From the NCBI GenBank assembly GCA_947446285.1, contig CANFGH010000019.1:1-39649 (forward strand): DNA of 39,649 nt, in the 5' to 3' direction. The notes under the pieces are model-generated. The model had not been told where the DNA came from. It saw only the letters and a program-made list of their open reading frames with translations, and did not search any database. Positions 1-23,768 of this stretch are shown in pieces; position 1 is the first letter of the stretch, and the number at the start of each line of letters is the position of its first letter. The stretch comes from Chloroflexota bacterium (lineage in GTDB: Bacteria; Chloroflexota; UBA11872; UBA12225). The position numbers and the translations under genes are program-made.

Positions 1-102
1 CCCACACGCCCGATCAGACCGGGCTGGCACACTGCGCGGCCATACCGGCTCGACCAGTTCGAGGCGAATGCCGGCCGTCCTGTGCTACGATCACAGCCGC
101 AG

Positions 103-176
103 TGCCGTGTCGTCTAACGGTAGGACGCTTGACTCTGAATCAAGTAGTTGGGGTTCGAATCCCTGCACGGCAGCCA
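103..176 (+). tRNA. tRNA-Gln (anticodon CTG), CCA encoded
   Basis: Acceptor TGCCGTG pairs with CACGGCA; anticodon stem CTTGA-CTCTGAA-TCAAG; T-arm GGGTTCGAATCCC; 3' GCCA. Confidence 0.95.
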
Positions 177-292
177 GGCAGCTGCCTTCGCGCACTGCAT
201 GACATCCAGCCACTTCGGTCCTCGCATGGTTCCGGTAGCGGTCGGTTCAACTAACTGGCCGGGTACCCGACTCATGGCTCTTTGAGACACGC

Positions 293-1081
293 ATGATGTG
301 GACCGATATTCCTGCCCCTGAGGCGCACTCCCGGCTGACGAAGGCGCTTCAGGATCTCGGATCTGTGACCGACCCGACAGTCACGTCAGTCGCCGAGGCG
401 ACCGGGGATCCGTCCCGGCCATGGCGGGATTGCCAATCGCTGGTCACCGTCGCCGGTTCCTTTAATCCATTGCACTGGGCGCATCTGGAACTGCTTGCCT
501 GCGGCATCTCGACCGTCTCGGCCGATGCCGGAGCATTCATTCTCAGCCCGAATACCGTCGACAAGATGCGCCCGCTTGGCATGGACCTCGTTGACCGAGC
601 ATGGACGACGCAGACGACGCTCGACTGGGCAAGCATGCACGACACGCGCTTGGCGCGGGCATCCCTTTCCGGACTTCTGGTCAGTCACGGCCTCTACGTC
701 GACCAAGCCCGTGCCCTCCGACACGCCTGTGCCAATCTGAGCGAAGCGGGTCTCTGGTTCGTGGTTGGGTTCGACAAGATCGTGCAGATTTTCAACCCGC
801 GGTATTACACGGACCGCACCACCTCGTTGGGAACCCTCTTCGCCTTGGCCGGTTTCCTGGTTGCGCCGCGCGACGAAGCCACGCATGCCGACCTCGCCAA
901 CCTCCTAGCCACCCCCCAGAACCTGCCGTATGCCACCAGGGTGAGGCCGATTGAGCTTCCGGCCACTCTCGCCAGTGTGGCTTCCACGGGCATCCGCGCA
1001 CGCGCATCGTTTGGGACCACCCTATCGGACGATGTCCCACCACCCGTGGCGACAATGATCGAAACACGACACTGCTACTGA
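293..1081 (+). CDS. NadD-like nicotinate-nucleotide adenylyltransferase / nucleotidyltransferase
   Basis: Motif VAGSFNPLHWAHLELL resembles the GxFxPxHxGH cytidylyltransferase-fold signature. Confidence 0.7.
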   Translation: MMWTDIPAPEAHSRLTKALQDLGSVTDPTVTSVAEATGDPSRPWRDCQSLVTVAGSFNPLHWAHLELLACGISTVSADAGAFILSPNTVDKMRPLGMDLVDRAWTTQTTLDWASMHDTRLARASLSGLLVSHGLYVDQARALRHACANLSEAGLWFVVGFDKIVQIFNPRYYTDRTTSLGTLFALAGFLVAPRDEATHADLANLLATPQNLPYATRVRPIELPATLASVASTGIRARASFGTTLSDDVPPPVATMIETRHCY

Positions 1082-1587
1082 CCAGGAACGGATTCGAGTG
1101 CGGTCAGGAAGGCACGTAGCGAAGCGGACATGAACGCTTCCTGGTTCTCGAGCCGTCCGTCGAGACCTGTTCTCACCTCGATCACCATTGGGGCTGGTAG
1201 CGGTCCCACCACCGCGATGAACACGAGGCCTGCGGACTTGGACGACCGGCGGCCCGATTGCGGTCCCGCAATCCCAGTCTCAGCAAGACCCCATGTCGTA
1301 CCCGAGACCGCACGAACTGCTTCCGCGAGACAGACGGCGGCTCCCGCGCTGACGGCACCATCCTTGCCGAATGCATCCGCGCCCAGACCAAGCCACGTCT
1401 CGCGCACCCTTGAGGAGTAGGGAATCACCCCGCCACCGAACCACGCTGATGCGCCCGCTACCCCCAGGAGTGCGCCCGAGATCATCCCGCCCGCCGACGT
1501 CTCCGCAACCGCAACTGTCGCCCCGGTAGCGATCAGGTACGTCGCGATTTTTCCGGCAATCTCATGGACGGACATGTGCGCACTCAC
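1075..1587 (-). CDS. CinA C-terminal domain family (PncC-like nicotinamide-nucleotide amidase)
   Basis: IATYLIATGATVAVAETSAGGMISGALLGVAGASAWFGGGVIPYSSRVR is typical of standalone CinA-C. Confidence 0.88.
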   Translation of the reverse strand: MSAHMSVHEIAGKIATYLIATGATVAVAETSAGGMISGALLGVAGASAWFGGGVIPYSSRVRETWLGLGADAFGKDGAVSAGAAVCLAEAVRAVSGTTWGLAETGIAGPQSGRRSSKSAGLVFIAVVGPLPAPMVIEVRTGLDGRLENQEAFMSASLRAFLTALESVPGQ

Positions 1588-2870
1588 TCTCCCTTGGCCA
1601 TCACTTGCGTCGCTACCTCCATCGCCTGAGGGATCACCGTTTCAAGTGACACCCGCCCGGCCCAGAATGGCGTGAGTGCCTCGCCGACCGCGCGTCGCAT
1701 CGCCCCGGTTGCCGGTGACAGGTTTGGCGTGCGGACACGTAGGAGCGCACCGGGGATCGACGCCCGCCGGTCATGCGGGGCCGAACCCGGGGTCCGGTAC
1801 GTGGTTGCGTCCGTGATCGACTTCGACTGCGGAAGCCACAGACCCTGTTCGAACTCGAGTCGTTGCGTGTCGGGATCGACCAGGAACTGGAGGAGTTCCC
1901 AACCGTCGTCCGGGTTTGACGCGCGCGAACCGATTGCGATCACATCCGGTTGGTAAGCCCCAACCTGAGCAACCCGGCCCTTCGGTTGCGGCGAAATCCC
2001 GAAGTCCAGTGCACCATGGCGACGAATCGTCATCTCATCGTCTGCATTGCCGAACCACATCGCGACCCGCCCAGCAGCGAAGTCGCCAATGTCCCGCACC
2101 ACGCCCGCGGGAGGCGCCACCCGATGCGTCTCCCGCAGCGACATGATCCATGTAAGCGCCTCGCGCACCATGGGTGTGTCAAGTTGCGGCTTCGCTCCAT
2201 CCCGGTCGACATCGTCCCCACCGGCACCCCATAGCCACGGGAGCGGGAATGACGCCATCGGTTCGATGGCCGTTCCCCACCCACCACCACCCGGTGCGGT
2301 ACCTGTCAGCCGTCGCGCAACCCCAAGGAAGTCTTCCCACGTCCACGTCGGCAGTGGATCGGCCATCCCAAGACGTTGGAACCAGGCACGATTGTGAAAG
2401 ACTACCCACGCTGCCGTCTGAGACCGGGGAAATCCGTACCAGTTGCGCTTGAAGGTGCCAACGTCGTAAGGCGGAGCAATGTGATCTGGACGAAAACCGT
2501 CCCGCTTTACCAGCGCATCCAGACGCAACGCCGCCCCGCGGGCGTACATGTTCTGAGCAAGTTGCCCAGGCACCCGCATGACATCCGGGTCCGTGCCACC
2601 GGAGATGAGTGCCTCGAGGCGATCGACGTATGTCGCTTGGTCTAGTGCGGTGATGATGTCGATCCGAAGGTCCGTGTAATTCTTCTCGAAGTTCAGCAAC
2701 GACCAGTGCTCCGCCGCACGAGGGCCAACCTCACCCCATGTGGCATAGATCACTTTCCCGGGCGACGTACCAATTCGAGGCACGCCTGGGAGATCGTCAT
2801 CGGTCCCGCACGCGACCAAGGCAGCCCCGGCAAGTAGTGAGGCATGCACTCCAACCAACCGGCGTGTCAT
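1584..2870 (-). CDS. Extracellular solute-binding lipoprotein (sugar ABC type)
   Basis: Likely start MTRRLVGVHASLLAGAALVACG with lipobox; body reads as a family 1 solute-binding protein (YATWGEVGPRAAEHWSLLNFEKNYTDL). ORF open to 3011. Confidence 0.85.
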   Translation of the reverse strand: MTRRLVGVHASLLAGAALVACGTDDDLPGVPRIGTSPGKVIYATWGEVGPRAAEHWSLLNFEKNYTDLRIDIITALDQATYVDRLEALISGGTDPDVMRVPGQLAQNMYARGAALRLDALVKRDGFRPDHIAPPYDVGTFKRNWYGFPRSQTAAWVVFHNRAWFQRLGMADPLPTWTWEDFLGVARRLTGTAPGGGGWGTAIEPMASFPLPWLWGAGGDDVDRDGAKPQLDTPMVREALTWIMSLRETHRVAPPAGVVRDIGDFAAGRVAMWFGNADDEMTIRRHGALDFGISPQPKGRVAQVGAYQPDVIAIGSRASNPDDGWELLQFLVDPDTQRLEFEQGLWLPQSKSITDATTYRTPGSAPHDRRASIPGALLRVRTPNLSPATGAMRRAVGEALTPFWAGRVSLETVIPQAMEVATQVMAKGE

Positions 2871-3332
2871 CCGCACCGGTGCCGGAAGTGGCGGCGGGGT
2901 GGTACGTGCCCCATCCCCACCATCTGACCCCGCTGGGGCCTGCACGCCATGCGAACCCACCCGCTGTCCGGTGCTGACTGACATTCCAGTGGCCGAGGGT
3001 TCGCGTATCACCAGTCAATCCTCCGCGAACCCGCCCGCGCGACCCAACGACCATCGAAGTCCCCCAAACCAGGCGCAAATCCATGCGCGCTCGGAACTAG
3101 GGGTATGGTTTGGCCTCGGCGAAGGGTACATGAATAGGGGTGGGATGCGGTCCGGAAACGATGGTACGCCACAACGCGCCAACCACCGAGCCAATCACTT
3201 GCGCGCAACAAGAAGACCTCACCTCCCGGATACGTGCAGCTGACCCACCGGAATCGCTGCGGGCAACCGGCGGTCATCGCGGGATATGATGCGGGGGCCG
3301 AACCGACCATAAGCAGTAGATCGGAGCCACCC

Positions 3333-4742
3333 GTGAGCCGAACGAGCGCAAGCTACAGCATCATCGTCCGCTGCCAGATCGAGAACAGGCCCGGAATGCT
3401 CGGACGCCTCGCCTCCACGATCGGTGAGGCTGGTGGGGACATTGGCGCGATCGACATTGTTCGGCAGGAGCGAGGCATCCTCACCCGCGATGTCACCATC
3501 AACTGCCGGAACGACAGCCACGGCGAGGCAATCGTAGAGACGCTCAAGGCGATCGACGGCATCACGGTTGTGAACGTGTCCGACCGGACTTTCCTGATGC
3601 ATCTTGGTGGGAAGATTGAGGTCACGTCGAAGTCGCCCCTGAAAACCCGTGACGACTTGTCGATGGCCTACACGCCAGGTGTCGCCCGCGTTGTCCGTGC
3701 CATTGCCGAGGATCCCGCGCGTGCCTTCGCTCTCACGATCAAGCGCAATACCGTTGCCGTGGTCAGTGACGGATCCGCCATCCTGGGCCTTGGCAACCTC
3801 GGCCCGCTCGCAGCCATGCCAGTCATGGAAGGCAAGGCGATGCTGTTCAAGGAGTTCGGCCGCGTTGACGCGTTCCCAATCTGCCTCGATACCCAGGACA
3901 CCGACGAGATCATCGAAACCGTCGTGCGCATCGCCCCCGCGTTCGGTGGCATCAACCTCGAGGACATCAGCGCACCAAGGTGCTTCGAAATCGAGGAACG
4001 GCTTCGGGAACTTCTCGACATACCGGTCTTCCATGACGACCAGCATGGCACTGCCGTAGTGGTCCTGAGTGCCCTGATCAACGCGTGCCGTCTCAGCGGA
4101 CGCACCCTTCAGGATCTGAAGATCGTCGTCAACGGCATCGGCGCTGCTGGGGTCGCGATCATCAAGATCCTGCTGGCGAGCGGCGTGCACAACATCGTCG
4201 GATGCGACCGCAGCGGCGCAATCCATGCCGGCCGGGCTGACAACATGAACTCCATGAAGGAGTGGATTGCAGTCCACACGAACGCCTCTGGGGTCCGCGG
4301 ATCCCTGAGAGATTGCCTTGTCGGTGCCGATGTCTTCGTTGGCGTCTCCGCGCCAGGCGTGGTCACGGTCGACGACATCCGGAGAATGGCGCCTCATCCC
4401 ATCGTGTTCGCCCTCGCCAATCCGGATCCGGAGATCAGTCCGGAGGATGTTGCCGACGTCGTCAGTGTCATTGCGACCGGCCGTAGCGACTATCCGAACC
4501 AGATCAATAACGTCCTTGCGTTCCCGGGCATCTTCCGCGGCGCGCTTGACGCAAGTGCGACGACCATCAATGAAGAGATGAAGGTCGCCGCCGCCTACGC
4601 TATCGCCAGCACCGTGGCCGATGAGGAACTGAGCGCGGACTACATCATCCCGAGTGCGTTCAATCGACGCGTGGTGGAAGCCGTGGCAGCAGCGGTCGCC
4701 GAAGCCGCGACCACATCGGGGGTCACGCGACGCCGGTCGTAA
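3333..4742 (+). CDS. NAD-dependent malic enzyme with N-terminal ACT domain
   Basis: ACT-like YSIIVRCQIENRPGMLGRLASTIGEAGGDIGAIDIV, then malic enzyme motifs (DLSMAYTPGVARV, SDGSAILGLGNLGPLAAMPVMEGKAMLFKEF, FHDDQHGTAVV). GTG start inferred. Confidence 0.93.
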   Translation: MSRTSASYSIIVRCQIENRPGMLGRLASTIGEAGGDIGAIDIVRQERGILTRDVTINCRNDSHGEAIVETLKAIDGITVVNVSDRTFLMHLGGKIEVTSKSPLKTRDDLSMAYTPGVARVVRAIAEDPARAFALTIKRNTVAVVSDGSAILGLGNLGPLAAMPVMEGKAMLFKEFGRVDAFPICLDTQDTDEIIETVVRIAPAFGGINLEDISAPRCFEIEERLRELLDIPVFHDDQHGTAVVVLSALINACRLSGRTLQDLKIVVNGIGAAGVAIIKILLASGVHNIVGCDRSGAIHAGRADNMNSMKEWIAVHTNASGVRGSLRDCLVGADVFVGVSAPGVVTVDDIRRMAPHPIVFALANPDPEISPEDVADVVSVIATGRSDYPNQINNVLAFPGIFRGALDASATTINEEMKVAAAYAIASTVADEELSADYIIPSAFNRRVVEAVAAAVAEAATTSGVTRRRS

Positions 4743-4804
4743 TGCTGCCAGGCGCGATTTGGTGAGGTGGATGGACAGGGGTAGGTCCGGATCTTGGGAC
4801 CGTC

Positions 4805-4852
4805 GGAGAGGGTCAGCGAAGCTCATCCTGAGAGCACCCCCTGACCCTCTCC
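4805..4852. terminator. Bidirectional terminator-like hairpin between convergent genes
   Basis: 12-bp perfect inverted repeat GGAGAGGGTCAG ... CTGACCCTCTCC, 24-nt loop. Confidence 0.65.
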
Positions 4853-4946
4853 CGTCGAAACGGGCGTGGGCGGCGAACCAACAACTGTCCGGATCAAACA
4901 AGTCACTCTGGCAACCTGGGACCGGCGACCCCACGGGGCCAGCCAT

Positions 4947-5735
4947 CTACCTGAGTGTATGCAAGGGCCGTCGCCGTCCTACCGGCAGCGGATCAATCGC
5001 GCCGAATCCGAACCGGCGTTTCAGCCAGTACCCGATGATCAGCAGGATCATGCGCGTCCCGACACGAAGCGTTGTGTTCAACGATCCGGTGATCTTGCTC
5101 TCGCCGACCCGTCCGCGATAGTTGACCGGGATTTCGATGAGGCGCATTCCCGAAGCAAGCGCGAGGCAGACCATCTCCGGCAGGAAGTGTGATGCCCCGA
5201 CCGTGAGGTTGCCAGCGAACATCAGATAGGCGTCGGTGCGCACAAGACGCAAGGTGCAGCCACAGTCCGAGAGTGACGGGCCATCATGAAGCACTTGCAA
5301 GAACTTTGCCACGGCCCAGTTCCCCCACCGCAGGAAACGACCCATGTTCGCCTCCTGCCAGATGAGTTCCGGTGTCGTGCGCGTCCCGAGGACGAGGTCG
5401 AAGTCATCGGCAAACGCCAGCAACTTCATCACATCCTTGCCGGCAAACGTGCCGTCCGGTTCCGCCATCACGATGAGTTCCGCGCCACTTCGAGCGGCCT
5501 CAGCCAAACCACGTTGCAGGGCATTTCCGTAGCCCTGCTTTGTCTCCAGGACGTAGGTCGCACGCGTGCCCTTGATCAGCTCGGACGTGCGGTCCCGACT
5601 GTTGTTGTCCACTGCGAACACGTCGTCAACAATCGTTCCCCCACCGGCTGCAAAGAAGTCATCGATTGCCTGGGCAATGTTCTTCTCTTCGTTGTAGGCA
5701 GGAAACACGACGGCAACACGCTGGCCGTACCACAT
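4947..5735 (-). CDS. Glycosyltransferase family 2 (DPM1-like)
   Basis: VAVVFPAYNEEKNIAQAIDDFFAAG, DDVFAVDNNSRDRT, YGNALQRGLAEA. Likely start MWYGQRV; ORF open to 5843. Confidence 0.9.
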   Translation of the reverse strand: MWYGQRVAVVFPAYNEEKNIAQAIDDFFAAGGGTIVDDVFAVDNNSRDRTSELIKGTRATYVLETKQGYGNALQRGLAEAARSGAELIVMAEPDGTFAGKDVMKLLAFADDFDLVLGTRTTPELIWQEANMGRFLRWGNWAVAKFLQVLHDGPSLSDCGCTLRLVRTDAYLMFAGNLTVGASHFLPEMVCLALASGMRLIEIPVNYRGRVGESKITGSLNTTLRVGTRMILLIIGYWLKRRFGFGAIDPLPVGRRRPLHTLR

Positions 5736-5963
5736 CAGTCGTCTCCGCTCCTTCCGTGGCAGGATACCCAACCGACGCGACGTTCGAACATAACGCGGCC
5801 CGCAACACACGGATGACTCCAATCCATTCGGGTGCCGGGACAAGCTACCAGCCTGGTCAGAGATTCCTTGTTGGAACGCTCGTGAGGACGCAGATCAGGC
5901 GCAAAGCGCGCAGTGGTCACCGTGCTGTGGGAATGAATGCAAGTGGTCAGGCAACTGGGTCGA

Positions 5964-16850: not shown

Positions 16851-17026
16851 AGGCCGTTGCCCATACTCCGATGGCGCCTGCAACGTTCTGAGCAATAGCG
16901 GACTTCATCCCACACTGTCAGCCATTTCTTGCGCCATTCAAACGGCCGCCCACACGTCAGGCACACCTTGGTTGGCAACTGCCCCTTCCGTCTCGCGGTG
17001 GGGAGGGTCTGATGACGGTTTCTCAC
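16847..17026 (-). CDS. DUF2256 family zinc-ribbon-like small protein
   Basis: QLPTKVCLTCGRPFEWRKKWLTVWDEVRYCSERCRR; GTG start overlaps the photolyase stop (GTGA). ORF open to 17488, but upstream part is in the photolyase gene. Confidence 0.85.
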   Translation of the reverse strand: MRNRHQTLPTARRKGQLPTKVCLTCGRPFEWRKKWLTVWDEVRYCSERCRRHRSMGNGL

Positions 17027-18618
17027 ATGTCCCCACCAGTCAGATCGAATGCCAACTGCGAAGAATTCGCAGATGCCGCCCGGTCGTGAGTTGCTGGGGG
17101 ATCCACGACCTTGGGTGATTTTCTGCGCAATGGCGACGTTCTTGCCTTGCGGCTTCCGTGCCTGACCAAGATCGCACGTGCCTCGGAACGAAATGCATCG
17201 CCACGACGCACTGCCCAGACACGTTCGCGTGCCAGCCGCGCAGCGATTTCGTGGTCGACAATTGGCGAGGGATAGTCGGTACCGAGTACGCACGAGACGA
17301 GTTTCTGCATATCCTCGGGCATCCGCCACGGTTGGTGGATGAAGGTGCCGGGAACTTCGCGCAATTCCGGGACCCATCTGCGTATGAATGTACCTTCGGG
17401 GTCCTGATCGGTCGATTGCTTCACGGGGTTGTAAATGCGGACCGTATTCGTTCCCGTCGTACCACCTTGCATCTGCATTTGTGACCAATGGATGCCCGGT
17501 TCATAGTCGGTGAAAAGCCGTGCCAGATGCAAACCGGTGTCGCGCCAGTGCAGCCACAAGTGGTAGGACGCAAACGCCACGAGCATTGCGCGCATGCGGA
17601 AATTGATCCATCCGGTCGCGGTGAGCGATCGCATGCATGCATCGACAAGCGGGAAGCCTGTACGACCCGTCGCCCACGCCCGAAAGAGCGTCTGGTCAAA
17701 CTCATTCTCACGGAGGCCGTCATAGGCCCGATGGAGGTTTGCAAACTCCAGGGAAGGGGAAGCCTCGAGTTTCTGGATGAAGTGGCAGTGCCAATGGAGA
17801 CGCCCGATGTAGGCCCGAAGTGCCGTGGGCTGGGCGCCTCGGACTTCCGCCGGCATGGCTTTCACCTCGGCCAGCCTTCCCCACGTCGCCTGCGCCACTT
17901 CGCGCATCGAAAGCGTGCCGTTCGCAAGGTGCGCGGATAGCCGGGAACAGGCCGTGTCCGCGGTCAACGGACTCGACATCTCGCGGTGGTAGGTTGCGCC
18001 ACGATCATTCAGGAACGAGCGCAATAGGTCAAGTCCGGCTAAGCGTCCACCTGGCTGCCTCCCGGGACAATCGTCCGGCGCGAGACCAAGATCGGAGACA
18101 CCCGGTATCGAACCCGGGTCAAGGCCTGGCAGGGATCGGACCGCCGCGGGCGCTGGAATAATCGGTGCGCGCATCTTCCGATCCCAACGCGATGCCCAAC
18201 CATCACGCGTTCTGCGTGGACGCTCCACCCCGGACTGAGGAAACTCGTGCCACGGAACCGCACGGCCACGCGCCCACGCCGCAACTTCCTTGTCACGCGA
18301 ATACGTCCACCCGTTCCCGGTCTCCTCATGTGACCAGATCCCGGATATACCGACCTGCCGATGCAACCGATCTAAGAGCGAGACCGTGTCACCGGTCCGG
18401 ATGACCAGCGTGCCCCCAATCGACAGGAGGTCATGCCTCAACTCCTGAAGCGACTCCTGGATGAAGAGCCACTGGCGGGCGGACGCGCAGGTTTGCGCCC
18501 ACAGGTCTGGTTCGGCGATGTAGAGGCAGACTACCGGGGCCCCGGTTGCAACCGCAGCAATGAGAGGATGGTGGTCGACGATCCTCAGATCACGCTTGAA
18601 CCAGACCACCTCAACCAT
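17023..18618 (-). CDS. Deoxyribodipyrimidine photolyase / cryptochrome family (FAD-binding)
   Basis: VEVVWFKRDLRIVDHHPLIAA; GRTGFPLVDACMRSLTATGWINFRMRAMLVAFASYHLWLHW; DYEPGIHWSQMQMQGGTTGTNTVRIYNPVKQSTDQDPEGTFIRRWVPEL. Confidence 0.95.
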   Translation of the reverse strand: MVEVVWFKRDLRIVDHHPLIAAVATGAPVVCLYIAEPDLWAQTCASARQWLFIQESLQELRHDLLSIGGTLVIRTGDTVSLLDRLHRQVGISGIWSHEETGNGWTYSRDKEVAAWARGRAVPWHEFPQSGVERPRRTRDGWASRWDRKMRAPIIPAPAAVRSLPGLDPGSIPGVSDLGLAPDDCPGRQPGGRLAGLDLLRSFLNDRGATYHREMSSPLTADTACSRLSAHLANGTLSMREVAQATWGRLAEVKAMPAEVRGAQPTALRAYIGRLHWHCHFIQKLEASPSLEFANLHRAYDGLRENEFDQTLFRAWATGRTGFPLVDACMRSLTATGWINFRMRAMLVAFASYHLWLHWRDTGLHLARLFTDYEPGIHWSQMQMQGGTTGTNTVRIYNPVKQSTDQDPEGTFIRRWVPELREVPGTFIHQPWRMPEDMQKLVSCVLGTDYPSPIVDHEIAARLARERVWAVRRGDAFRSEARAILVRHGSRKARTSPLRRKSPKVVDPPATHDRAASANSSQLAFDLTGGDM

Positions 18619-18714
18619 GCGGATTCCCTCAACTCGGCCACAGCATCGCAGGGATGGGGAAGCACTGGCGTCAGGGACGAGTCCCCTCGTATCGCAACCC
18701 CGTACGCTTTGCCA

Positions 18715-19758
18715 ATGAATCCTCCTGAAGAAGCCGTTGGATCTTCACTACGCCGCGCCGTCGTGATCGGTGCCGGACCGGCCGGACTGTCCGCAGCCTC
18801 CCGCCTCGCGCTCGCAGGAGTCGATGTGACGGTCCTCGAAAAGAGCCGTGGCATCGGCGGGCGGGTTGCAACTCGGCGAACACGGGACGGACTTGCATTC
18901 GACCACGGGGCACAATTCGTCACTGCGCGCGGCGCCTCGTTCGGCGCATTCCTGCAGGGGGCGTCCGAGATCGGATGTGCGTCGGAATGGAACCCGATCA
19001 CCGATCCGTCCCGGTTCCGCGTCGCCACCGGCTCGACCGACCCCGCCCTGTCGGGACCAGCTTCACACTGGTTTGTCGGAACCCCCGGGATGTCCTCGCT
19101 GTTCAAGCACCTCGCTGCCGGATTGACGATCCGAACCGAGGTGACCGTGACGCGGGTGGACCTGACCGAACACGAGGTATGGGTAGACGTCATCGAATCC
19201 GAACACGGCCCACATCGTAGCGGCCCATTCGACGCGGCGATCATTGCTATTCCGGCAGCCCAAGCCAGCGCAGTTGCCGGGCACCTTGACGGTGTCGCCG
19301 CTTCACTCGCAAGGGTTGTCATCACCCCATGCTGGGCACTGATGCTGGCCTTCTCTGGCGACCTGCAGATGCCATCGGACGTGGTCCGTCGGTCCGAAGG
19401 CCCAATCGCATGGGTTGCTCGAAATACGTCCAAGCCCGGGCGCGCGCCGGACGTCACCACACTCGTGGTCCACGCATCGCCGGAGTGGACCCGGGAGCAT
19501 CTCGAAGACGATCCCGGAACCGTGGCCACTCAGCTGTTCGACGCGCTGCCGGCGGTCGTTGGAAGGACATTGCCCGATCCGCAACACGCCGTCTCCCACC
19601 GGTGGCGGTACGCCCAGACCGCGGTGCCCCTTGCCTCGCCGTTTCTCGAAGCGGTCAACGGGAGGGTCCTCATCGGGGGTGACTGGGCGACCGGGGCCCG
19701 AGTCGAAGCGGCATGGGACAGTGGCGAAGCAATGGCCTCACGCCTGCTCGGCCAGTAA
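18715..19758 (+). CDS. NAD(P)/FAD-dependent oxidoreductase (renalase-like)
   Basis: Rossmann motif AVVIGAGPAGLSAASRLALAGVDVTVLEKSRGIGGRVATRR; C-terminal LIGGDWATGARVEAAWDSGEAMA. ORF open from 18433. Confidence 0.88.
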   Translation: MNPPEEAVGSSLRRAVVIGAGPAGLSAASRLALAGVDVTVLEKSRGIGGRVATRRTRDGLAFDHGAQFVTARGASFGAFLQGASEIGCASEWNPITDPSRFRVATGSTDPALSGPASHWFVGTPGMSSLFKHLAAGLTIRTEVTVTRVDLTEHEVWVDVIESEHGPHRSGPFDAAIIAIPAAQASAVAGHLDGVAASLARVVITPCWALMLAFSGDLQMPSDVVRRSEGPIAWVARNTSKPGRAPDVTTLVVHASPEWTREHLEDDPGTVATQLFDALPAVVGRTLPDPQHAVSHRWRYAQTAVPLASPFLEAVNGRVLIGGDWATGARVEAAWDSGEAMASRLLGQ

Positions 19759-19780
19759 GCCCAATTCTCGCGCTTTGGGC
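19759..19780. terminator. Hairpin filling the convergent intergenic gap
   Basis: GCCCAA-N10-TTGGGC occupies the entire 22-nt gap. Confidence 0.5.
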
Positions 19781-20230
19781 CTAACCCTGCATGTACGCCA
19801 GGATGCCACCCATGAGCACACAGTTCAGGATGTCGTTCCCAACCTCAAGCGCCCACACGCCGAACCCATGCCCACCGAACAGGCGGTGGCCCAACGGGGC
19901 AGTTGCAGTGAACCCCACCCCGGCAACAAGCCCTACGATAAGTCCATCTACGACCCCGAATGGCGTCGCAATCCCGGCGCGAATCGCCAGATTGATCACC
20001 ACCGCCATTGCGGCCGCCTGAACGATCTGTGCGACAAAGGTAGACCTAAAGACGACCCCCATGGACAGGTTGCCACCGGGGTTCGTGGTCGATCCCGGTT
20101 CGTGACCCATAAGACGCCACCATAGTGGGAAGAAGGTCTTCGGACCGAACCACAAGCCACCCGAAACCGTTCCCACAACGCCGGCAACAACGACGCCGAT
20201 CCAATTGATTCCGTCAAGCATTCGCACCAC
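19781..20230 (-). CDS. DUF1761 family membrane protein
   Basis: INWIGVVVAGVVGTVSGGLWFGPKTFFPLWWRLMG and further TM segments. Confidence 0.75.
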   Translation of the reverse strand: MVRMLDGINWIGVVVAGVVGTVSGGLWFGPKTFFPLWWRLMGHEPGSTTNPGGNLSMGVVFRSTFVAQIVQAAAMAVVINLAIRAGIATPFGVVDGLIVGLVAGVGFTATAPLGHRLFGGHGFGVWALEVGNDILNCVLMGGILAYMQG

Positions 20231-20332
20231 TCCGACCGTTGCAATCGCCGCTCCTCACGGGAGGTGCGCCGTATCGACGATTGGGAAACGACCGGGACCA
20301 ACTCATGGTTTCCTTGACAGGACCTCCCACTC

Positions 20333-21880
20333 TTAGGCGAGGCCATCCAGGAACGTCTCGGCCTCCGCCAAGACCGCCGCGCGTCGGTCTGAATTCCACG
20401 TGCCAAGGGTTCGGTACGGCATCGCCATGCGTGGGTTTCCCTTCAGGATGTCCTCATTCCGGATGAGAAAGGCCCAGTACAGGTAATTGAATGGGCACGC
20501 CGTCGGCCCGGATTTCGCCTTTACGTCGTAGCGGCACCCCCCGCAGTAGTCCGACATGCGGTCGATGTACGCCCCAGAAGCTGCGTACGGCTTCGACGCG
20601 ATGATCCCGCCGTCGGCCCAAGTCGCCATCCCATGAGTGTTCGGCAGCTCGACCCACTCGAAGGCATCGGCGAAGACCGCGAGGTACCACGCCTCCACGT
20701 CAGCGGGACGTACCCCGGCCAACATCGCGAAATTGCCTGTGACCATCAGTCGCTGGATGTGGTGCGCATAGGCATGGCGACGCACCTGATCCACGGAATC
20801 CGCGAGGCATCGCATCGGGGTCTGCGCCGTCCAATAGAAATCCGGTAGCGGGCGTGACGCACCAAGTGCGTTCGACGCCGCGTATTCCGGACCGAGGTGC
20901 CAGTACATCCCGCGAACGTACTCGCGCCAACCAAGCACCTGCCGCACGAACCCCTCCACGGCATTCAGTGGCGCACGCCCGGCACGGAATTCCGCCTCGG
21001 CGGCATCGCAGACCTCGCGGGGCAGCAGCAGGCCAACGTTGAGGTATGGCGAGATTGTCGAGTGGAACAGGAATGGCGCGCCGTGCCTCATCGCATCCTG
21101 GTAGTCACCAAACGATGGCAGGCAGGTCATCAGAAAGTCGTCAAGGACGACCAAGGCCTCGTCGCGCGTCACCGCCCACCCGAACGGGTTGAGATCGCCA
21201 AAGCCATGCGGGAACCGCTCTGCGACGAGATCGATGACTTGCCGCGTCATCACGTCTGGAGCCGGTCGAGACCTTGCCGGAATCGGTAGGCGCGACGGCA
21301 AGGCACGACGGTTCTCGGCATCGAGGTTCCACTGGCTCCCAACCGGGTCGGCACCATCCATCAGGATGCCCGTCTCTCGGCGCATCTCCCGGTAGAAGAA
21401 CTCCATCCGGTACGTCTTCCGGCCGCTCGCCCATCGATCAAACCGCGCGTGTGACGCGATGAACCGGTTGTCCTCGCGCATCTCCACAGGGATGCCGAGG
21501 GAGGCCTCCCAAGAATCAATCAGCCGTCGAACACGCCATTCCCCGGCCTCGGTAACGATCAGTCGCGTTGCGTCGTGGCGCGCAACGGCCCGCGCAACCT
21601 CGCCGGTAAATGTGCCCGTGTTGGCCGGGTCATCAAGCCGGACATAGTCGACCCGGACACCATCGGCACGCAACTCCTCGGCGAAGTGGCGCATCGCCGC
21701 GAGTATGAACACCAGCTTTTGGCGGTGATGGGGGACGTAAGTCGCTTCCTCCTGCACCTCAACCATCAGGACAACCTGGGCGGGGTCTCCCGGACGAAGG
21801 TCGGACAGAGAGGACAGGCCCCGTGTGAGTTGATCCCCAAGGATGAGCCGGACGGTAGTCACGCTCAAAGTATCGGCCAT
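20333..21880 (-). CDS. Cryptochrome/photolyase, FeS-BCP / PhrB-like ((6-4) photolyase type)
   Basis: TVRLILGDQLTRGLSSL; GWREYVRGMYWHLGPEY; NFAMLAGVRPADVEAWYLAVFADAFEWVELPNTHGMATWADGG; four candidate Fe-S cysteines in MRCLADS, DYCGGCRY, TACPFNY. Confidence 0.95.
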   Translation of the reverse strand: MADTLSVTTVRLILGDQLTRGLSSLSDLRPGDPAQVVLMVEVQEEATYVPHHRQKLVFILAAMRHFAEELRADGVRVDYVRLDDPANTGTFTGEVARAVARHDATRLIVTEAGEWRVRRLIDSWEASLGIPVEMREDNRFIASHARFDRWASGRKTYRMEFFYREMRRETGILMDGADPVGSQWNLDAENRRALPSRLPIPARSRPAPDVMTRQVIDLVAERFPHGFGDLNPFGWAVTRDEALVVLDDFLMTCLPSFGDYQDAMRHGAPFLFHSTISPYLNVGLLLPREVCDAAEAEFRAGRAPLNAVEGFVRQVLGWREYVRGMYWHLGPEYAASNALGASRPLPDFYWTAQTPMRCLADSVDQVRRHAYAHHIQRLMVTGNFAMLAGVRPADVEAWYLAVFADAFEWVELPNTHGMATWADGGIIASKPYAASGAYIDRMSDYCGGCRYDVKAKSGPTACPFNYLYWAFLIRNEDILKGNPRMAMPYRTLGTWNSDRRAAVLAEAETFLDGLA

Positions 21881-22081: not shown

Positions 22082-23263
22082 CTAGAAGCCTGGGGAAAGG
22101 CCAGCCAGACTGCGTTGCCAGGCACCGCGACGGTGGAGCCAGAGCAAGGCGCCGGCAGTCGCGATCGGAACGCCATCCGGGCAGACGGCACTGATCAGAC
22201 GCCAAAGCGGAGCGGCCGAGTTCACCAAAGCGTCGGTCGACGCCTCCAAGGCAAGGTGGTAGCCGAGAGGTTCGGGAGATACGAGGACCGCCTCCGGCGA
22301 CCACCGCGCACCGCCAATGAGCGCGGCGCACGCGCTCACGAACGCCTGCACCACCCGTCGATCCAGCGTTCCGTTGCTCTGCCGGAACTCGATGATGTCC
22401 TTTTCACGCGAACCCACGTCCGTCAGGTTCAAGACAGCGTGCCTCGACGTTCCAGCTCGGTCGAATGACTGCGCAGGTTCATCGAAGGTCCAATACTCGC
22501 CAAGCCGTGGTGGCGAGTGCCGATAGATGAATGGTTGTCCTCGGTGGCACCCTCCCTCGGCACTTGCCATGCGGAAGAGAACATCCTCGAAGCACGCATT
22601 GGCAAGTACTGCGAGGCGGGTAATCCGCGTCAGGAACGCGTCCTGCCTGCCTTTCGCCGACGCAGCATCCTGCCCGTCCCGCAACGCATCAGCAGCGAAG
22701 TGCACATGAAACCCACATTTCCCACTCACGTCGGCCCCGCATGCACGCAAGACCTCGAGAACTGTCGAAACCTGTTCCCATGTCTCCGGCGTATCAGAAA
22801 GTGGCGGAGACACGACTTCCCCTCCAAGTGGGGAGGATGTGCCTGGCCACGCCTCGCTGCCGCCAAGTTCCCAAGTCAATGCCGGATCAACTTCAACCGT
22901 CCATGACGCAGGCGACCGGGGGGTGTGGCGCCGTCGCGGTTCCGCAACCGCCGTGATGCCTCGTGCGTGCAATTCACTTGCGACCCACTCGCGATTTGCC
23001 GCTCCGAATTCAATTTCCAAGCCAAACGTCCACGTCTGCGTGATATCGCGACGCGACGGCCAGAGTCCGAAGACTTCCTCAGTCCGGTAGAGAGCGGTGA
23101 AGTCCTCGGACACACCTTGGCGATTCAGCCACCAGTAAACCGGCGCCGCACCCTCAGGCAGGCACACAAGAGAGCCGTCAGCTGTCTCAAAATAGTTGAA
23201 GGGCTGAGCCGCGGAGGCGCCGGGTGCCTGTGATGTGCCAATGGCACCTGTCATGAATCCCAC
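22082..23263 (-). CDS. Amidoligase_2 family enzyme (glutamine synthetase-fold COOH-NH2 ligase)
   Basis: TFGLEIEF; WTVEVDPALTWE; GGEVVSPPL; CGFHVHFAADAL; DIIEFRQSNGTLDRRVVQAFVSACAALI. Confidence 0.85.
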   Translation of the reverse strand: MGFMTGAIGTSQAPGASAAQPFNYFETADGSLVCLPEGAAPVYWWLNRQGVSEDFTALYRTEEVFGLWPSRRDITQTWTFGLEIEFGAANREWVASELHARGITAVAEPRRRHTPRSPASWTVEVDPALTWELGGSEAWPGTSSPLGGEVVSPPLSDTPETWEQVSTVLEVLRACGADVSGKCGFHVHFAADALRDGQDAASAKGRQDAFLTRITRLAVLANACFEDVLFRMASAEGGCHRGQPFIYRHSPPRLGEYWTFDEPAQSFDRAGTSRHAVLNLTDVGSREKDIIEFRQSNGTLDRRVVQAFVSACAALIGGARWSPEAVLVSPEPLGYHLALEASTDALVNSAAPLWRLISAVCPDGVPIATAGALLWLHRRGAWQRSLAGLSPGF

Positions 23264-23312: not shown

Positions 23313-23768
23313 ATGACACTAAGAAACCGTTTCTTGATACTGCACGGCCCCAATCTCAATCTTCTTGGAACCCGTGAGCCTGGCATCTACGGGTCCCTCA
23401 CCATTCATGACATCGACGAACACATTCGGGGACTGTCAGTGGAGCTTGAAGTGGATGTGGAGTGCCACCAGTCCAACCATGAAGGTGCACTGATCGACCT
23501 GATGCACGGCGCGATCGGCCATGTTGACGGGTGCATCATCAATGCCGGGGCATACACCCATACCAGCATCGCCCTTCATGACTGCATCAAAGCAGTGCCG
23601 TACCCCACCATCGAAGTCCACCTTTCGAACATTCATGCGCGGGAGCCATTCCGCCACGTCTCGCGACTTGGCCCGGCCGTGCGCGCATCGATTGCGGGGT
23701 TCGGATGGCGCAGCTACACCGCCGCACTGCGTGCACTGGTGGAGCAGCTGCGTGAGGCCGACGCCTGA
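23313..23768 (+). CDS. aroQ: 3-dehydroquinate dehydratase, type II
   Basis: FLILHGPNLNLLGTREPGIYG; CHQSNHEGALIDLMHGA; INAGAYTHTSIALHDCI; EVHLSNIHAREPFRHVS. Confidence 0.97.
   Translation: MTLRNRFLILHGPNLNLLGTREPGIYGSLTIHDIDEHIRGLSVELEVDVECHQSNHEGALIDLMHGAIGHVDGCIINAGAYTHTSIALHDCIKAVPYPTIEVHLSNIHAREPFRHVSRLGPAVRASIAGFGWRSYTAALRALVEQLREADA

Follow-up and report, generated by a model that had tools for sequence, protein, structure and literature searches.

An orphan Amidoligase_2 gene of a Chloroflexota bacterium and its apparent decay within the genus

Does an amidoligase gene that stands without visible partners mark an active pathway to a new metabolite or peptide tag, as an earlier note on this DNA had suggested? 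The gene is found on contig CANFGH010000019.1, of which the whole analyzed stretch of 39,649 nucleotides is referred to as the window; the window belongs to a 3.4-Mb metagenome-assembled Chloroflexota genome, and no second PF12224 gene was found in that genome. The answer favored here is that the gene encodes a ligase of the Amidoligase_2 family with the GS fold, of which the copy in the window would be weakened or dispensable under relaxed selection rather than the center of a working pathway; this reading is considered probable, with ample room for doubt.

Gene, fold, and active-site residues

The ORF at 22082-23263 on the minus strand comprises 393 codons when read from the GTG at 23263. 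The ATG at 23254, which is the fourth codon, is the likelier start, because the alignments with orthologs begin there; it yields a protein of 390 amino acids, and residue numbers are counted from it. All five strings on which the first assignment had been based, FGLEIEF, VEVDPAL, GGEVVSPPL, CGFHVHF, and IEFRQSNGTLD, are present in the ORF (Table 1), and a degenerate DNA pattern of the first one had a single match in the window and none in any of 100 shuffles. Residues 1-75 (positions 23030-23254, minus strand) form an N-terminal extension without a Pfam match, which is conserved in the Chloroflexota family of the window genome and is marked by GT at its start and, further on, by LP and LWP-x-R.

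Table 1. Features of the amidoligase locus in the window. Coordinates of the strand-2, -3, -4, and -6 regions were calculated from residue numbers.
Feature	Position	Strand	Basis
Amidoligase_2 (PF12224) gene, 390 aa	22082..23254	-	Pfam match, ortholog-based start
Strand-1 motif FGLEIEF (GhExE), E80 and E82	23006..23026	-	Alignment; motif definition PMC2588565
Strand-2 region WTVEVDPALT, residues 118-127; invariant W118, D123; A125 for family Ser/Thr	22874..22903	-	
Strand-3 region GGEVVSPP, residues 144-151; invariant E146, V148, P150	22802..22825	-	
Strand-4 motif CGFHVHFA, residues 180-187; invariant G181, H183, H185; A187, Gly in 28/30	22694..22717	-	
Strand-6 motif IEFRQSNGTLD, residues 288-298; invariant E289, R291	22361..22393	-	
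aroQ, type II 3-dehydroquinate dehydratase, divergent neighbor	23313..23768	+	PF01220, TIGR01088
FeS-type photolyase-related protein	20333..21880	-	PF04244; 201 bp downstream of amidoligase, same strand

The protein matched Pfam Amidoligase_2 (PF12224) with an E-value of 4.5e-18 and 66.4 bits (gathering cut-off, 22), residues 77-195 of the 393-amino acid form being aligned with profile positions 2-123 of 245; PHROG 2443, "amidoligase enzyme", was matched at 1.1e-10. The family is that of Iyer et al. 2009 (doi 10.1039/b917682a), as cited in PMC11318856. NCBIfam offered no model for the protein, and searches of the PDB by sequence and by profile gave no relevant match. AlphaFold models were built for the window protein and for the ortholog L014 (mean pLDDT 63 and 66, respectively), in both of which the core strands are well predicted. 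In Foldseek searches with the models m56adece7ff26 and m184a22a8b607, the top match was YbdK (1r8g; E-values 6.4e-4 and 1.3e-4, respectively), and the next matches of either model included glutamine synthetases, gamma-GCS, and PafA or Dop. The TM-scores were low, about 0.3-0.44, so the predicted folds support the GS fold class and not close kinship. The motifs described for the superfamily are GhExE in strand 1, acidic residues in strands 2 and 3, [HD]x[NH] in strand 4, an arginine in strand 5, and Ex[RK] in strand 6 (PMC2588565); they are represented in the window protein by GLEIE, D123, E146, HVH, R271, and EFR, where R271 is the putative strand-5 arginine as assigned here. The last Asp of Ex[RK]x2D is replaced by Asn, as in 25 of the 30 alignment rows. 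Judged by profile match and predicted structure, the gene is a genuine member of the known family Amidoligase_2 in the GS fold class, and this part of the earlier assignment has been borne out.

The alignment of 30 rows comprised the window protein and 29 relatives, of which one belongs to a sister genus and the rest to a second Chloroflexota group and to viral contigs. Sixteen columns are invariant, and all are kept in the window protein (T76, F77, G78, E80, E82, W118, D123, E146, V148, P150, G181, H183, H185, N276, E289, and R291). An intact active site is supported in part, by the 16 invariant residues; at position 125, two residues past the strand-2 Asp, the window protein has Ala where the other 29 rows have Ser (27) or Thr (2). 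The string VEVDPAL itself departs from the family, since orthologs read VE-H/Q-D-x-S-V at this site; at position 187, Ala occupies a site with Gly in 28 of 30 rows. Family membership stands in spite of the missing Ser/Thr: the residue is near-invariant in the alignment set, yet published definitions of the family do not include it.

By analogy with glutamine synthetase, YbdK/gamma-GCS, and PafA, the encoded enzyme would be an ATP-dependent carboxylate-amine ligase. The pairs E80/E82 and H183/H185 together with E146 would hold ATP and Mg2+, while the carboxylate would be phosphorylated; attack of an amine on the acyl phosphate would then give the amide, with R291 and R271 stabilizing the phosphate and D123 being the acidic residue of strand 2. 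No assayed member of Amidoligase_2 was found in the literature searched here.

Inheritance and probable decay of the gene

Four further genomes of the family to which the window genome belongs (G004, G005, G006, and G007) carry intact orthologs with 49-56% identity, each adjoining aroQ and an aminotransferase gene. Full-length orthologs (>650 bits) were found in these four only, and any relative at all in 16 of the 400 sampled genomes of the phylum. Since the intact orthologs occupy the same place, divergent from aroQ, the amidoligase gene is an old, vertically inherited chromosomal gene that this Chloroflexota family has in single copy and at a fixed place next to aroQ. The GC profile gave no sign of a foreign island. 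Among the orthologs, L014 (CAMBEO010000013.1) is from a record titled Thermoflexus hugenholtzii JAD2 isolate; its contig matches G004, a genome assigned to the family of the window genome, and the public name may be wrong.

The surroundings of the gene are as had been described, with aroQ divergent and the PF04244 photolyase downstream. The block at 17023-21880 between rpiA and the amidoligase gene, which is also present in G001, encodes an FAD photolyase, an FAD amine-oxidase-like protein, a DUF1761 protein, and the FeS-type photolyase, while rpiA directly adjoins the amidoligase gene in G005-G007. The position being inherited, adjacency to aroQ or rpiA says little on function. The reported lack of a partner was confirmed by profile searches of the window, the genome, and the family: no gamma-glutamylcyclotransferase, ATP-grasp, or DUF4417 gene adjoins the amidoligase gene in the window, no match to GGACT/AIG2 (PF06094) was obtained in the genome (89% complete), and no ParB and DUF4417 genes adjoin the window gene, DUF4417 not being found in its Chloroflexota family.

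Within the genus, the copy in G003, the closest relative, is 92% identical to that in the window. It contains two in-frame stops (CGA to TGA, and GGA to TGA inside NGTLD), has lost its stop codon (TAG to TCG), and holds an assembly gap (Ns). In G001, a relic of about 175 N-terminal codons is spread over more than one frame and has FGMGIVF for FGLEIEF; the remainder of the gene is deleted up to the photolyase gene. The whole locus is absent from G002, which gives no information on amidoligase loss. As read from the assembled sequences, both congeners with an examinable locus have a broken gene, and no intact frame other than that of the window was found in the genus.

Pairwise dN/dS between the window and G003 is 0.56 for the amidoligase gene versus 0.03-0.18 for eight in-frame neighbor genes, with strong constraint on aroQ (0.125) and the aminotransferase gene (0.04); a ninth control, ABC2b, had 10 stops from an out-of-frame reading and was left out. 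In a Tajima test, 38 unique changes at otherwise constant sites fell on the window lineage and 12 on that of G004 (p = 3e-4). The same counts are 5 versus 6 for the aminotransferase and 4 versus 2 for aroQ, and a direct contrast of the amidoligase with these small neighbor numbers did not reach significance (Fisher p = 0.12). The fast changes, to which the A125 and A187 substitutions belong, are common to the G003 copy in 34 of 38 cases and in no case clearly private to the window; the burst of change therefore preceded the breakage in G003. By these counts the stem lineage of the genus is shown to have accelerated; relaxed selection on the amidoligase in the genus is inferred. Clearly private amino acid changes number two on the window branch versus nine on the G003 branch, which hints at remaining constraint and leaves room for a still-working enzyme. 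With branch-specific codon models, a window-branch omega equal to the background was not separated from omega = 1, the outgroup branches being saturated and their omegas unstable. The open frame of the window copy says little either way, because the probability of no stop arising in 20 random substitutions is 0.48.

Alternative readings of the locus

According to the favored reading, the amidoligase lineage of the genus evolved rapidly once it had separated from the sister genus, and the gene afterwards broke in both examinable congeners. The same stem burst might instead have been adaptive, the window protein being a working amidoligase with an altered substrate and the sister species having lost the gene later. 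Retention of all invariant residues, the small number of clear changes on the branch of the window itself, and the placement of 34 of the 38 fast changes before the loss in G003 would agree with such a history. The exchanges of Ser/Thr and of Gly for Ala at near-invariant sites, the loss of the gene in both other genus genomes with the locus, and the lack of a new partner gene nearby speak against it, and it is regarded as unlikely. An artefactual origin of the breaks in G003 and G001, with the gene ordinarily conserved across the genus, is brought to mind by the metagenomic assembly of all genomes and by the gap within the G003 gene. However, what breaks the gene in G003 are ordinary point substitutions, while the remaining sequence can be aligned and the neighbors are intact. 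The G001 relic has frameshifts, has lost ExE, and lacks a large C-terminal part, and the two losses are unlike each other; such an origin is deemed very improbable.

The least probable proposal, to which hardly any weight is given, is that the amidoligase works together with its neighbors, namely aroQ, a PRA-PH-like pyrophosphohydrolase, the aminotransferase, and rpiA, in aromatic or nucleotide-sugar metabolism. The gene order amidoligase-aroQ-PRA-PH-aminotransferase does recur in other genera, and in G005-G007 rpiA lies on the opposite side. Yet aroQ is divergent, the relatives of the amidoligase elsewhere sit among quite different genes, and no genome with aroQ was found to have a second dehydroquinase, which makes aroQ a housekeeping gene; aroQ and the aminotransferase gene remain intact and constrained where the amidoligase gene is broken. 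A functional link between the amidoligase and aroQ was rejected on these grounds.

The evidence does not support an active pathway to a new metabolite or peptide tag, since the gene is decaying in the genus, its neighbors are housekeeping genes, and a link to a pathway is missing. The gene looks more like one for an ordinary enzyme being lost in the genus than like the entry point to a new pathway. An orphan enzyme with good motifs is poor evidence for a new pathway, and the sister genomes show that this gene is dispensable. Better targets for biochemistry would be the conserved orthologs in G004-G007 and the mobile cassettes combining ParB, DUF4417, ATP-grasp, and amidoligase genes; their substrate, if found, would bear on the entire Amidoligase_2 family.

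Comparison with known systems

With the YbdK/GCS2 carboxylate-amine ligases (1r8g), the best fold match of both models, the window protein shares the layout of the metal- and ATP-binding motifs (PMC2588565); identity is about 12% without a sequence-profile match, and the YbdK substrate cannot be carried over. Compared with Amidoligase_2 at large, the window gene is alike in domain score, family motifs, and GS fold and differs in the Ala for the near-universal Ser/Thr and in the N-terminal extension of about 75 residues, which is recognizable only in its own Chloroflexota family. Viral contigs yielded no relatives when searched with a single ortholog and 44 relatives in an alignment-based search. 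Two phage members (L050 and L051) have gamma-glutamyl(amine) cyclotransferase genes nearby, whereas the window gene is without the gamma-glutamylcyclotransferase or glutamine-amidotransferase partners of these phage members.

In the tree, the window clade joins the second Chloroflexota group and the plasmid amidoligases of Streptomyces and Nonomuraea, apart from the phage group, the grouping being weakly supported (SH-aLRT 76). In the second Chloroflexota group, the amidoligase gene lies behind genes for ParB, DUF4417, and a RimK-like ATP-grasp protein (L065; partly L022) or, in L015, near those for an N6/N4 methyltransferase, an AAA ATPase, an HTH protein, and an integrase; on the actinobacterial plasmids (L048 and L049) it follows ParB and DUF4417. 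The cassettes (L065:819-6241; L022:9246-13752, minus strand; L048:1784-5864; L049:1949-9595) have the order ParB-like protein, DUF4417, RimK-like ATP-grasp protein (Chloroflexota), and then one to three amidoligases, and those of Chloroflexota also encode a conserved protein of small size (about 110-130 amino acids). The two adjoining ligase folds suggest peptide or protein modification on mobile DNA. A further plasmid sequence, L052 (NZ_CP109476.1), encodes in CDS 1-5757 a very large protein annotated as "toxin glutamine deamidase domain-containing" with an amidoligase-like stretch inside.

It is conceivable, albeit rather improbable, that an amidoligase of a mobile element became resident at the base of the family, gained the N-terminal region, lost its ParB, DUF4417, and ATP-grasp partners, changed its substrate in the genus, and was then dropped by the sister species. 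The mobile-element amidoligases of L065, L022, L048, and L049 are, within the weakly supported grouping, the nearest relatives of the window gene. Those of Chloroflexota have 31-36% identity with the window protein and share with it the motifs YHx-R-x-W-x-E-x-D and HRG. The mobile-element genes are accompanied by ParB, DUF4417, and often an integrase, in contrast to the window gene, which has none of these and keeps its inherited place beside aroQ.
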